Below, piece by piece: positions 1 to 52,243 of a stretch of DNA of 64,000 nt. The notes under the pieces are model-generated. The model saw only the letters and a program-made list of their open reading frames with translations. It did not search any database and was not told the DNA's origin. The translations under genes and the position numbers were made by a program. How positions within the stretch are numbered: the stretch's first letter is position 1; each line of letters opens with the position of its first letter. The DNA comes from Lacrimispora sphenoides (GTDB lineage: Bacteria; Bacillota; Clostridia; Lachnospirales; Lachnospiraceae), in the NCBI RefSeq assembly GCF_900105215.1, contig NZ_FOIP01000001.1:806001-870000 (forward strand). Direction: 5' to 3'.

Positions 1-1471
1 TTTGCTGCGCTGTCTGGATCTCCCGGTTCATATTCTCAATTTCTTCCCGCAGGGCGGATAACCGTTCCACGGATGACTTTTCATTTTCCCATTGGGCCTT
101 CTGGGAAGCAAACTCATCATGAAGCTCCGCCAACTCCTTCTGAAGCTCTGCAAGGCGGTCCTGGCTTAAACGGTCGGTTTCCTTCTTTAGGGCAGCCTCT
201 TCAATCTCCATCTGCATAATACGCCTGGAAAGCTCATCAAGCTCAGCCGGCATGGAGTCCAGTTCTGTCTTTATCATGGCACAGGCTTCATCCACTAGGT
301 CAATGGCCTTATCCGGCAGAAAACGCTCGCTGATATAACGGTCAGACAAAGCGGCTGCCGATACCAGGGCAGAGTCTGTGATTTTTACCCCATGGTAGAC
401 CTCATACCGTTCTTTCAGTCCCCTTAATATGGATATGGTATCTTCCACCGTAGGCTCGTCGACCATGACCGGCTGGAAACGCCGTTCCAAAGCCTGATCC
501 TTCTCTATATACTGGCGGTATTCATCAAGTGTGGTGGCGCCGATGCAGTGTAGCTCGCCTCTGGCAAGCATAGGCTTTAACATATTGCCTGCGTCCATGG
601 AACCTTCTGTCTTACCTGCTCCTACAATGGTATGAAGCTCGTCAATAAACAGAATGATCTGACCGTCACTTTTTTTCACTTCATCAAGAACGGCCTTTAA
701 ACGTTCCTCAAATTCACCCCGGTACTTGGCACCTGCCAGCAATGCTCCCATGTCAAGGGCAAACAGCTTTTTGTCCTTTAATCCCTCCGGTATATCGCCC
801 CGGACAATCCTTTGAGCCAGGCCTTCTACCACGGCAGTCTTACCGACTCCAGGCTCACCGATCAAAACCGGGTTGTTCTTCGTCTTCCTGGAAAGGATCC
901 GCACCACATTCCGGATCTCGCTGTCCCGTCCGATGACAGGATCCAGCTTCTGGTCCCTGGCCCGCTCCACCATATCATAGCCGTATTTAGTAAGGGTATC
1001 GTAGGTTGCCTCCGGGTTGTCATTTACAACACGCTGATTTCCTCTTACCGTGGATAGGGCCTGTAAAAAGTTTTCCTTTGTTATGCCATAACTCCGAAAC
1101 AGCTCCTTTACCGCTTTGGATGGCTGCTTTAACATGGCTAAGAATAAATGCTCTACAGAAACGTATTCATCTCCCATGGCCTTTGCCTCATCCTCGGCGC
1201 TTATTAAGACCTTATTTAAATCATTGCTGATGTAAATCTGTCCTCCCCTGACCTTGGGAAGTTTTTCTATTGCCTGAGCCGTTTCATTTAAGAATTGCTC
1301 TTTTTGTATATTCATCTTGGTAATGAGTTTCAAAATCAGGCTGTCTTCAATGGTAAGAAGGCTGTACAGCATGTGTTCCTGCTCGATCTGCTGATTTCCA
1401 TATTCATATGCAAGCTTTTCGCAATTCTGGACGGCTTCCATCGATTTTTGCGTAAATTTATTGATGTTCAT
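1..1471 (-). CDS. clpB: ATP-dependent chaperone ClpB, 5' part (runs off the left edge)
   Basis: Encodes the first 490 or so residues of ClpB, the Hsp100 disaggregase that works with DnaK to pull apart aggregated protein in the cytosol. Visible in order are the Clp N-domain (from [14 protein letters not shown]), the first AAA+ module with Walker A GEPGVGKT, Walker B LFIDELH, the sensor-like [15 protein letters not shown] and arginine-finger region DQALERRFQ, and then the charged coiled-coil middle domain (repeated Glu/Lys/Leu from about residue 410). The middle domain separates ClpB from ClpC or ClpA. The second AAA+ module lies outside the window. The start is fixed by GGAGGAG seven bases before the ATG at 1471. 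A consensus promoter with an inverted repeat lies upstream. Confidence 0.95.
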
Positions 1472-16880: not shown

Positions 16881-16940
16881 ATAATAAGGAAGTTCCATAC
16901 GCCCAATGAGCACATAGAACGGCTGATTTCCTGAATTCAT
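16881..16940 (-). ncRNA. fourth, diverged copy of the ribosomal 3' two-hairpin element
   Basis: Tandem to the copy at 16941-17012. The main stem is GTTCTAT / ATGGAAC (16920 to 16892), changed on both sides relative to the GTTCGA/TCGAAC of other copies yet still pairing. An inner GCTC-ATT-GGGC hairpin is kept. A TTCCT/AGGAA stem takes the place of the first hairpin. It ends in the shared ACTTCCTTAT. Confidence 0.55.
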
Positions 16941-17012
16941 GAAGGAAGTCCGATTCACCCGAGGCTCCTCGAACGGCTAATTTACTAAATCCAGGCTGTA
17001 CAACCTTTGCCT
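16941..17012 (-). ncRNA. conserved two-hairpin element after rpmE
   Basis: Starts 12 bases after the rpmE stop. First hairpin AGGC...GCCT. Then the conserved TAGTAAATTAGCCGTTCG, and a second stem GTTCGA/TCGGAC around a small GCC/GGT hairpin. Ends with ACTTCCTT. Related copies follow rplJ and rplK. Not a family I recognise. Confidence 0.6.
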
Positions 17013-17023
17013 TCATAAGTAAA

Positions 17024-17233
17024 TTATGCTTCAGCCTTAACGCCATATTTACGATTGAATTTATCAATACGTCCACGAGCGGAAGCAGCCTTCTGCTGAC
17101 CGGTGTAGAATGAATGGCATTTAGAACAAACCTCTACGTGGATATCTTCCTTTGTAGAACCAGTTACAAATTCATTACCGCAGTTGCAAACAACTTTTGC
17201 CTGGTAATAATTTGGATGGATTCCCTCTTTCAT
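17024..17233 (-). CDS. rpmE: 50S ribosomal protein L31, zinc-binding type
   Basis: A 69-residue L31 beginning [20 protein letters not shown]. The CNC and CSKC cysteines form the zinc site of the C+ (rpmE) form, as opposed to the zinc-free paralogue used under zinc limitation. GAGGTG precedes the ATG at 17233; an in-frame GTG nine bases earlier overlaps that site. Has its own consensus promoter upstream and two copies of a structured element downstream before the yqhQ-like gene. Confidence 0.97.
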
Positions 17234-50042: not shown

Positions 50043-50114
50043 TAAGGAAGTTCGATTCGCCTTATAGCTCACCGAACGGCTAATTTTCTAAGTCCAGGTA
50101 TGCTTTGCTTACCT
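50043..50114 (-). ncRNA. conserved two-hairpin element after rplJ
   Basis: Begins 13 bases after the rplJ stop. First hairpin AGGTA / TACCT (with two inner GC pairs). Then TTAGAAAATTAGCCGTTCG, a stem GTTCG/CGAAC around a GCT-ATAA-GGC hairpin, and ACTTCCTTA. Same layout as after rplK and rpmE. Confidence 0.65.
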
Positions 50115-50126
50115 TTATTAAAAATC

Positions 50127-50630
50127 TTATGCCTCTGCTGCTTCTCCGCCCTGAGCATCTGCAATCTGCTTGAGAACGCGAGCAATGTTTGTGATAGGAG
50201 ACTGGATGCTTCCAAGCAACTTTCCAAGAAGGATATCCCTGGAAGGAATGCTGGAGATCTTCTCCATACCTTTTGCATCATAATAAGCGCCTTCTACAAC
50301 ACCGCCCTTAATCTCTAAGGCTGGAGCTGTTTTTACAAACTCAGCCAGGATTCTTGCCGGAGCTGTTGCATCTGTCTTGGAAACAGCGATAGCTGTAGGT
50401 CCTTCCAGATTAGGTTCCAGAGCCTCAAATGCTGTACCCTGAGCTGCAAAACGGATCATTGTATTCTTATATACTTTGTAGGAAACACCAGCCTCTCTTA
50501 ATTTCTTACGAAGTGCTGTATCCTGAGCAACTGAGATACCACGGTAATCTACAACTACCGCTGACTCAGCGCCATCAAGTAATTCTTTGATCTCGCTTAC
50601 AACTGGCTGCTTTAATTCAACTTTTGCCAT
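50127..50630 (-). CDS. rplJ: 50S ribosomal protein L10
   Basis: 167 residues, the stalk base protein that carries L7/L12 dimers: MAKVELKQPVVSEIKELLDGAESAVVVDYRGISVAQDT, written here only up to its first half's hallmark DYRGISV, and the C-terminal helix KQIADAQGGEAAEA for L12 binding. AGGAGG precedes the ATG. Preceded by a typical L10-binding leader with an attenuator. Confidence 0.98.
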   Translation of the reverse strand: MAKVELKQPVVSEIKELLDGAESAVVVDYRGISVAQDTALRKKLREAGVSYKVYKNTMIRFAAQGTAFEALEPNLEGPTAIAVSKTDATAPARILAEFVKTAPALEIKGGVVEGAYYDAKGMEKISSIPSRDILLGKLLGSIQSPITNIARVLKQIADAQGGEAAEA

Positions 50631-50696
50631 TATGGTTTACCTCCTGTTTAGTCTGAGCCTCCCGGCTGCCCGCAAGGCCCGCTCGTATAAACCGCA

Positions 50697-50730
50697 AAGA
50701 AAAACCCCTCCGCCGGATGGACGGAGAGGT
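50697..50730 (-). terminator. attenuator of the rplJL leader
   Basis: CCTCTCCG / CGGAGGGG stem (one wobble), followed on the minus strand by TTTTTCTTT, 70-100 bases before rplJ. The position matches the known regulatory terminator of L10 leaders. Confidence 0.85.
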
Positions 50731-50739
50731 CTACAATTC

Positions 50740-50825
50740 ATTTACATAAAATGATTCTTGTACATTCCTCGGCAGGCGTTAACACCTTATGCCTTGCGGC
50801 ACCTGCTGTCTTCGGCAGTCAATAC
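50740..50825 (-). ncRNA. L10 (rplJL) ribosomal leader
   Basis: Upstream of the attenuator the minus strand contains AGCAGGTGCCGCAAGGC, then TAAGGTGTTAACGCCTGCCG, with CAGG...CCTG closing a kinked structure. This is the recognised L10(L12)4 binding leader type, by which excess L10/L12 represses rplJL. Confidence 0.8.
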
Positions 50826-50831
50826 TTGCAT

Positions 50832-50860
50832 AGTATAACATTATTTATAATTAATGTCAA
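50832..50860 (-). promoter_or_regulatory. rplJL promoter
   Basis: On the minus strand TTGACA (50860-50855), a 17-bp spacer and TATACT (50837-50832), just after the rplA stop. It gives rplJL its own leader transcript. Confidence 0.88.
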
Positions 50861-50873
50861 CCACAAAACAAAA

Positions 50874-51569
50874 TTAGTTCATTAACTTAGCTACGTTCAG
50901 TTTTACGCCAGGTCCCATAGTGGAAGCCAGTGTAACACTCTTTAAGTAGGCACCCTTAACTGCACTTGGTCTTGCTTTGACGATTGCATCAACAAGCGTC
51001 TGGAAGTTGTCCGCTAACTGTTCTTCTGTAAAAGAAGCTTTTCCAACTGGCACGTGGATAATATTTGTCTTATCAAGTCTGTACTCAACTTTACCAGCTT
51101 TGATATCGTTGATTGCTTTTGTTACGTCCATGGTAACAGTGCCAGCTTTTGGGTTTGGCATTAAGCCCTTTGGTCCCAGGACACGTCCCAGACGACCAAC
51201 AACACCCATCATATCTGGTGTAGCAACAACTACATCAAATTCCAACCAGCCTTCGTTCTGGATCTTCGGAATCAATTCCTCAGCTCCAACAAAGTCTGCG
51301 CCTGCGGCCAGTGCTTCATCAGCCTTTGGGCCCTTAGCGAAAACTAAGATACGAACAGTCTTACCTGTACCGTGAGGAAGTACAACTGCACCACGGATCT
51401 GCTGGTCTGCGTGACGTCCGTCACAACCGGTTCTGATATGAGCTTCAATGGTTTCATCAAATTTAGCACTTGCATTCTGCTTAACTAAAGAGATTGCTAC
51501 TGGTGCATCGTAGAGAACAGAACGATCTACTGTTTTAGCTGCCTCTGCGTATCTTTTTCCTCTTTTCAT
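50874..51569 (-). CDS. rplA: 50S ribosomal protein L1
   Basis: 231 residues: [20 protein letters not shown] at the start, [15 protein letters not shown] in the middle (the L1 signature region [12 protein letters not shown]) and [16 protein letters not shown] at the end. It builds the L1 stalk and in many bacteria represses its own operon. AGGAGG lies nine bases before the ATG at 51569; the in-frame start at 51614 would run through the regulatory hairpin just upstream. Confidence 0.97.
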
Positions 51570-51585
51570 TCTAAATAACCTCCTA

Positions 51586-51615
51586 GTGGTATTGTCGGGG
51601 ATTTTCCCTCCCACG
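51586..51615 (-). promoter_or_regulatory. hairpin before rplA, second copy of the rplK leader element
   Basis: CGTGGGAGGGAAAA-TCCCC-GACAATACCAC: GTGG pairs with CCAC and GGGA with TCCC. It is nearly identical to the element before rplK at 52194. The form fits an L1-binding mRNA mimic; assignment is by position and analogy. Confidence 0.6.
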
Positions 51616-51640
51616 TTCTTAAAACTTCATTAACTGCGAT

Positions 51641-51716
51641 ATTATAAGGAAGTTCGATTCGCCTATCGGCTGTCGAACGGCTATTTTCTAATTTCAAGCC
51701 GCACTTACGCTTGCTT
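51641..51716 (-). ncRNA. conserved two-hairpin element after rplK
   Basis: Begins 27 bases after the rplK stop. First hairpin AAGC / GCTT. Then ATTAGAAAATAGCCGTTCG, a stem GTTCGA/TCGAAC around GCC-GATA-GGC, and ACTTCCTTATAATAT. Third unlinked or semi-linked copy in the window. Confidence 0.65.
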
Positions 51717-51742
51717 TCATTAAGTAAAATATGCCAAGAAAA

Positions 51743-52171
51743 TTATGCTTCAACTACTGTGATACCCATACTTCTTGCGGTACCAGAGACCATGCTCATA
51801 GCTGCTTCAACAGATGCAGCATTTAAGTCAGGCATCTTCAATTCAGCGATCTTCTGTAATTCAGCCTTAGTAATTGTAGCTACCTTTGTCTTATTAGGAA
51901 CCGCAGATCCGGATTTGATCTTGCAGGCCTTCTTTAATAATACAGCAGCCGGTGGAGTCTTGGTTATGAAGCTGAAGCTTCTGTCAGCATAAACAGTGAT
52001 AACAACCGGGATGATCAAGTCACCCTGATCAGCTGTTCTTGCGTTAAATTCCTTTGTAAACTGTACGATATTTACACCATGCTGTCCAAGTGCCGGACCT
52101 ACAGGAGGAGCTGGTGTAGCCTTTCCTGCTGGAATCTGCAATTTGATATATCCTGTTACTTTCTTTGCCAT
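51743..52171 (-). CDS. rplK: 50S ribosomal protein L11
   Basis: 142 residues: [39 protein letters not shown] and the C-terminal rRNA-binding domain ending [10 protein letters not shown]. It forms the GTPase-associated centre with 23S rRNA. AGGAGG precedes the ATG. Followed by the two-hairpin element and then the L1-type hairpin and rplA. Confidence 0.98.
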
Positions 52172-52193: not shown

Positions 52194-52243
52194 GTGGTAT
52201 TGTCGGGGATTTCCCTCCCACGAGCTTATACACGGGTATAAGC
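52194..52243 (-). promoter_or_regulatory. rplK leader hairpins (L1-type)
   Basis: Two adjacent structures on the minus strand: GCTTATAC-CCGT-GTATAAGC (52243-52224, perfect 8 bp), then GTGGGAGGGAAATCCCC...CCAC (52222-52194). The second is repeated before rplA. No T-run, so not a terminator. Confidence 0.6.

Follow-up and report, generated by a model that had tools for sequence, protein, structure and literature searches.

We analysed a 64,000-nt stretch of the Lacrimispora sphenoides genome (the window), and found on its minus strand three full copies of a structured element, located after rplK, rplJ, and rpmE, together with one older partial copy. The genes upstream of the full copies were named by NCBIfam as those of ribosomal proteins L11, L10, and L31. 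The initial annotation had described four copies, each with a short hairpin 12–27 nt after a stop codon and a second stem further on. The strings it named for these hairpins are present on the minus strand, but what was taken for a short hairpin is just the tip of P1, a longer one, and the description covered this tip, the junction of P1 with a second hairpin, P2, and P2 itself; three of the four copies are full, whereas the fourth is the older partial copy right behind the rpmE copy. The observation was thus confirmed, and the real element, of about 91 nt, is larger than first described. The features are listed in the table below, with scores from model R1, built from six copies of the L. sphenoides genome, and model R2, built from 34 copies; a third model, R3, represents the 42-nt core of P1 alone (48 copies).

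Table. Features of the 64,000-nt window
Feature	Position	Strand	Details
Full element, rplK-rplA	51645-51735	-	P1 51735-51679, P2 51678-51652, tail 51651-51645; R1 89.3 bits, R2 82 bits
GCATAATTTTCTT, 13 nt	51736-51748	-	overlaps rplK stop codon 51743-51745
Full element, rplJ-rplL	50043-50133	-	P1 50133-50078, P2 50077-50050, tail 50049-50043; R1 90.2 bits; P1 contains rplJ stop 50127-50129
Full element after rpmE	16941-17030	-	P1 17030-16976, P2 16974-16948, tail 16947-16941; P1 contains rpmE stop 17024-17026
Older partial copy behind rpmE copy	16885-16940	-	3' part of P1, P2, tail; R2 match 16885-16931, 21.6 bits, E 0.027
L10 leader RF00557	50690-50833	-	before rplJ; 80 bits
ORF of 4702 aa	23192-37300	-	
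GTGGGAGGG..ATCCCCGACAATACCAC stretch, rplA side	51586-51615	-	before rplA
GTGGGAGGG..ATCCCCGACAATACCAC stretch, rplK side	52194-52221	-	before rplK

The stop codon TAA occupies element positions 5–7 in the rplJ and rpmE copies. The rplK stop ends 7 nt ahead of the element, within GCATAATTTTCTT, which is probably what remains of the 5' end of an older copy, and the same stretch occurs in two related genomes (G013 and G014). The window also contains the L10 leader, an ordinary known regulator of its operon, and an ORF whose size is like that of a nonribosomal peptide or polyketide synthase. The two GTGGGAGGG..ATCCCCGACAATACCAC stretches are near-identical, and the one on the rplA side is kept in 17 of the 17 Lacrimispora-type spacers viewed. 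From their resemblance to 23S rRNA we presume that they may be L1 autoregulation sites; they folded no better than shuffles and had no Rfam match in the window.

The element is composed of hairpin P1, followed without a spacer by hairpin P2 and then by a short tail. The consensus of P1 is GGC-A-TAATTTACT...AGTAAATTA-GCC with inner stems, that of P2 is GTTCGAT-GA-GCC...GGC-GA-ATCGAAC, and that of the tail is ACTTCCTTA. The commonest tail, ACTTCC, was found in 36 of 92 copies, and ATCC, TACC, and ATACCC occur in others. The 42-nt P1 core contains a U.U mismatch, two tandem G.A steps, and an asymmetric RA/GMA loop; in alignments read by eye both G.A steps are symmetric and a K-turn-type 3-nt bulge was not seen. 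The base of P1 is located on or beside the upstream stop codon. An intrinsic terminator was rejected on reading the sequence, with an ACTTCC-like tail instead of a U-run and with common sites between genes of one operon.

To evaluate the predicted structure, six copies of the L. sphenoides genome were folded against dinucleotide shuffles, giving z values of -6.6, -4.9, -4.0, -3.8, -2.9, and -1.5. For five of the six, at most 1 of 200 shuffles folded as well, and the fold of the rpmE copy did not stand out (17 of 200 as good). In an alignment of 34 copies from this genome, the genus, and other genera, 90.3% of 997 pairing cells paired, a value to be read with caution since the copies were found with R1, whose structure overlaps the tested one. 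Column shuffles of this alignment gave 75.0% (0 of 500 as high), sliding one arm gave at most 43.3%, and 23 of 30 pairs showed change on both sides. Two checks lean less on the R1 structure. A pair lying outside R1 and R2 (CTTA-X-Y-GA...GA-Y'-X'-TTAG), scored in the 97 of 104 rows that fit the motif expression, covaries, with T.A in 37, C.G in 51, T.G in 7, and other combinations in 2, so that 95 of 97 cells pair. The orthologous rplJ-rplL copies (n = 17) carry double changes in 8 of 24 predicted pairs. In the P1 core, 93.6% of cells pair (shuffles 74.9%, slid arms at most 41.5%), and changes on both sides were found in 13 of 14 pairs. The compensatory base changes noted in the initial annotation are therefore borne out by the 34-copy, P1-core, and orthologous rplJ-rplL alignments, and covariation in homologues is strong. 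Across the 104-row family alignment, with identical rows counted once, G.U or U.G occurred 92 times and A.C or C.A 28 times, an excess that fits selection on the transcribed strand, although part of it may come from the model, which gives G.U a better score than A.C.

The copies of the window belong to a much larger set than the four at two loci from which the annotation started. Searching the L. sphenoides genome with R1, we found 21 copies at E <= 1e-3 and 33 matches at E <= 10. A two-part pattern gave 5 exact matches in 5.93 Mb and none in the reversed control; the 14-mer alone with 3 mismatches was found 7 times within the window against 5.35 expected, which is not beyond chance. With R1 at E <= 0.1, there were 1–29 matches per genome in 18 other genomes of the genus and the number reached 20–30 in 6 of 19 genomes of the genus; 12 genomes from other families had none. 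At E <= 1e-6, R1 matched 17 of 299 Lachnospiraceae genomes (one per genus, L. sphenoides included), R2 at E <= 1e-4 matched 63 of the 299 genera (one genome each, L. sphenoides included), and the P1 core (R3) was found in 104 of 299. In an order-wide sample, 8 of 146 genomes matched at E <= 1e-3, one of them (G424) outside Lachnospiraceae with a copy that follows what reads by eye like a 23S 3' end. In a phylum-wide sample, the 5 matching genomes among 348 were L. sphenoides, another Lachnospiraceae, and three of one genus of another family, f126, and the 6 matched by R3 were two Lachnospiraceae, the same three f126 genomes, and one further genome, G479. The large runs scored only 12–29 candidates per genome, so the copy numbers are lower bounds. 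A scan of named genomes with the exact pattern gave at least 119 stretches, and among the matches listed these were mostly from unrelated phyla with a few Lacrimispora-type records. No match was found for one copy in each of the plasmid and phage collections.

To determine where the copies lie in other genera, 75 regions around family matches (E down to about 6e-6; some further copies in already represented genomes were left out) were rescanned with R2, which gave 104 matches at E <= 0.01. The best 88 of these 104 (E <= 2.1e-6; 46 genera, the window's genus excluded) were classified and the other 16 left out, with reference proteins drawn from these copies and identified through NCBIfam (L36 by eye). 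The results showed that 58 of 88 copies have a co-oriented ORF stop within -8 to +11 nt of the element 5' end, compared to 4.9% of random positions in the same loci; the mirrored test with opposite-strand stops gave 8 of 88, near the random 6.1%. Stops of ribosomal-protein genes account for 51 of 88 copies, a count to be read with the fact that R2 was seeded partly with ribosomal-gene copies and can favour finding more of them. Thirteen different genes are represented: S8 (18 copies in 18 genera), S14 (8), S13 (6), S12 (5), L10 (4), L36 (2), L11 (2), and single copies at L29, L23, S11, L6, S7, and S10. Five more copies lie further along gaps behind ribosomal-protein genes. Eight copies are located at the 3' end of 23S rRNA (6 genera) and 2 at that of 5S rRNA (one genus). 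By Rfam, the 23S end falls on element position 6 in four loci (L262, L222, L250, L206), while the remaining four 23S cases were assigned from identical letters at the junction, and the 5S end falls on position 3 in L231 and L235. Other upstream genes are those of PGK (3 copies) and SSB (2), with one copy each behind GAPDH, EF-Tu, GrpE, a sodium-pumping decarboxylase beta subunit, IMP dehydrogenase, and ArgC; 11 of 88 fit no gene class. Among these 11, read by eye, are three reverse copies beside 5S in one genome (L196, L210, L211), a reverse copy before 16S (L224), and two that follow what reads like a T-box terminator (L242, L255). L10 is followed by a copy in five other genera (L187, L188, L189, L190, L226). 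In some S12 and S13 genes the last codons pair within P1, for example AAAAGTAA...TTATTTT in L194, and stops and last codons take part in P1 pairing in L194, L184, and L208.

The association with ribosomal genes proposed in the initial annotation is thus strong in other genera and weaker in L. sphenoides itself. Of the 29 L. sphenoides copies for which context was available (E <= 0.01), a co-oriented stop (-8 to +11) marks the start of 8, and only 3 follow ribosomal-protein genes, all three among these 8. The remaining copies lie in various intergenic gaps.

Comparison of orthologous sites revealed turnover of copies. The rpmE site is empty in 15 of 24 Lacrimispora genomes, where a GCTGA|ATAAGTTTGGAGC-type sequence is found; it holds a single copy in four genomes (G011, G008, G001, G012), and in five (G000, G013, G014, G007, G002) a newer copy stands where the older one had its 5' part. 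No rpmE match was obtained in a 25th genome, G005, which is outside the 24. Between rplK and rplA, all that is left in G009 is a 5' remnant, and in G006, G010, and G016 P1 is short but still pairs. The rplJ-rplL copy is present in 17 of 17 aligned genomes of the genus, which were chosen because R1 matched there (G007 and G012 are outside the set). Nested or tandem copies were also seen. The many copies and empty orthologous sites indicate that the element is a dispersed insertion-type repeat. The initial annotation had set a mobile repeat against a selected RNA structure, and the dispersed copies, empty sites, and nested copies agree in part with the former.

The P1 core recurs as a module. 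It was found inside P2 (L197, L198, L238), within another copy's P1 (L186:5236-5380), and in further dispersed palindromes. We viewed 42 R3 matches by eye in 40 regions, 41 in the family and one in G479, with the RNAs in these regions placed by Rfam. Twenty of these 42 cores lie at the ends of ribosomal-protein (10), pgk (4), and tRNA or rRNA (4) genes or beside decarboxylase/dnaK genes (2); the remaining 22 are elsewhere between genes, with just three genomes (G069, G299, G113) accounting for 15. G069 has about eight larger dispersed palindromes in which the P1 core stands between long inverted flanks (L335, L350, L353, L356, L357, L359, L361, L366), and these are perhaps another repeat built on the same module. 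The P1 module also occurs in one genus of the other family, f126, where two genomes (G668 and G643; L278, L279) carry it directly after an ORF ending PPGGGMPMM, GroEL-like by eye, and with a different P2. In G479, outside the family, the core lies behind an L31-like gene (L374), and the gene downstream is of the same gene family as in the window.

The annotation's statement that no Rfam family of this form was known held at the loci searched. Rfam 15 gave only L10_leader in the window, away from the element, no match over the element at four related loci with copies (E <= 5), and neighbouring families only at 40 P1-core loci. A sub-threshold match to TwoAYGGAY RNA was seen in L197 at 1-87 (-), with 37.7 bits against a gathering score of 43. 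In full-text searches of the open-licence PMC literature, no title or abstract on such an element was among the matches listed. ERIC sequences are imperfect palindromes of about 100 nt in transcripts, some near stop codons, with a proposed effect on mRNA stability; they are like the element in habit and are set apart, by this description, through other hosts and another sequence. Ribosomal-protein leaders (L10 leader RF00557, and S4-Clostridia RF03140, which was found near one P1 core) are also structured RNAs in ribosomal-protein operons. They precede one operon and bind one protein, whereas the element follows at least 13 ribosomal-protein genes and rRNA, and a leader was ruled out because the element follows many different genes. 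GA-cis RNA (RF02987) lies directly downstream of the P1 core in two dispersed copies in G113 (L343, L364); kinship was rejected, since the two are adjacent only, their matches do not overlap, and consensus and fold differ. GA-cis may belong to a repeat itself.

In habit, the element is closest to REP sequences, which are dispersed palindromes near gene ends. According to an earlier study, as reported in PMC12306157, when an E. coli REP is less than 16 nt away from a stop, ribosomes can stall and translation can be reduced, and PMC3733652 states that GTAG-REP termini often supply a TAG stop. The element differs in size, with about 91 nt and two hairpins compared to 20–40 bp for REP or BIME, and it has no constant GTAG or CGTC tag, the 5' junctions read by eye including TA|GGC, AGA|GGC, CTT|GACC, and CCA|GACC. 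Outside the window's genus it is tied to ribosomal-protein and rRNA ends, unlike REP. We class it as a transcribed structured intergenic repeat, separate from the REP and ERIC families. Base-paired hairpin insertions are described for clostridial 5S rRNA, and similar motifs of Thermoanaerobacterales for rRNA leaders and spacers, in PMC7812874. The insertions lie inside 5S, and the Lachnospiraceae 5S expansion was rejected as an identity on length, since the 133-nt 5S given there is too short for the element.

The structure, the mostly transcript-wise orientation, the placement at stops and rRNA 3' ends, the compensatory pairing, and the turnover of copies can all be read from the sequences. 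As to function, our judgement is evenly balanced on whether these dispersed, transcribed double-hairpin repeats of Lachnospiraceae are retained as RNA punctuation between genes. Copies would spread by insertion into untranslated gaps of transcripts, and would be kept where a stable structure right behind a terminating ribosome or a mature rRNA end helps, namely in abundant multi-gene transcripts. There, the double hairpin could protect the upstream segment's 3' end against exonucleases and bar endonucleases or Rho from the gap. This reading is suggested by the common sites, which are untranslated intervals in abundant multi-gene transcripts with the element starting without a gap. It is favoured by the covariation, the 92 to 28 ratio of G.U over A.C, the 58 of 88 copies at co-oriented stops, the 51 of 88 at ribosomal-protein stops, the 10 at rRNA 3' ends, and those behind PGK, GAPDH, EF-Tu, GrpE, and SSB. 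The P1 pairing with stops and last codons in L194, L184, and L208, the empty, single, and renewed rpmE sites, and the same L10 site in five other genera point in the same direction. Against it stand the mere 3 of 29 L. sphenoides copies behind ribosomal-protein genes, the roughly half of 42 viewed P1 cores at other intergenic sites, the partial seeding of R2 with ribosomal-gene copies, and the few reverse copies near 5S or 16S. Nor does any single site need a copy: G009 has almost lost the one at rplK, and 15 of 24 species lack the one at rpmE.

The same dispersal, empty sites, and tandem and nested copies, together with the several other dispersed palindromes that contain the P1 core, would also be expected if the repeat were nothing but a selfish miniature mobile element, either MITE-like or of the IS200/IS605 or REP type, with hairpins that serve transposition as DNA. 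Gene-end copies would then survive because other insertions are harmful, and copies would be frequent in highly transcribed units because exposed DNA is the preferred target of insertion. We consider this possible but on the unlikely side. The G.U/A.C asymmetry speaks against it, as do the two Y1 transposase (Y1_Tnp) loci of the L. sphenoides genome, each of 3.36 kb, where a motif scan showed no copy of the element beyond one 8-nt motif match. The double changes in 8 of 24 pairs of orthologous copies and the pairing of P1 arms with the last codons of host genes argue that selfishness is not the whole story, though conversion by other copies could mimic the former. A broader possibility, which we hold doubtful, is that the repeat is a general 'operon punctuation' RNA, a mobile module captured exactly where translated or mature RNA units end (at stop codons, tRNA junctions, and the 3' ends of 23S and 5S) and recognized there by a single dedicated factor. 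Candidates for this factor would be a nuclease for processing, a protein that helps ribosome recycling, or one that blocks Rho.

A processing site at which RNase III, Mini-III, or another nuclease cuts P1/P2, separating cistrons and releasing 23S and 5S 3' ends, would suit the abutting of P1 and P2 and the position of the P1 base, which meets the 3' end of 23S in six genera and that of 5S in one. Fixed mismatches and G.A steps interrupt the helices, however, and may be an obstacle to RNase III, and most sampled Lachnospiraceae genera have no match, so rRNA maturation does not need the element; we regard such a role as improbable. Even less probable, in our estimation, is translational coupling, in which the tail would hide or expose the Shine-Dalgarno sequence of the next gene, or ribosomes running through would open P1 and so allow translation of that gene. 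The commonest tail can pair with GGAGGT, and several L. sphenoides copies lie within 30 nt ahead of a start codon. Yet the tail varies, there is no start codon to act on where copies follow 23S or 5S, and the predicted Shine-Dalgarno pairing was just 0.22–0.60 in 15 rplJ-rplL spacers, which lends little weight to the earlier suggestion of control over the next gene.

The finding brings together, in a major bacterial family, an insertion-type repeat and an RNA supported by covariation, which are generally treated as separate matters. A functional role is testable, because copies are naturally present or absent in close relatives at rpmE and rplK. Even if selfish, the element is a large repeat family without an Rfam entry and with unusually precise placement. 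If it is functional, it would offer a common means of acting on ribosome genes after transcription, and an 'operon punctuation' RNA, if true, would mean shared 3'-end control over ribosomal-protein, rRNA, and energy genes.
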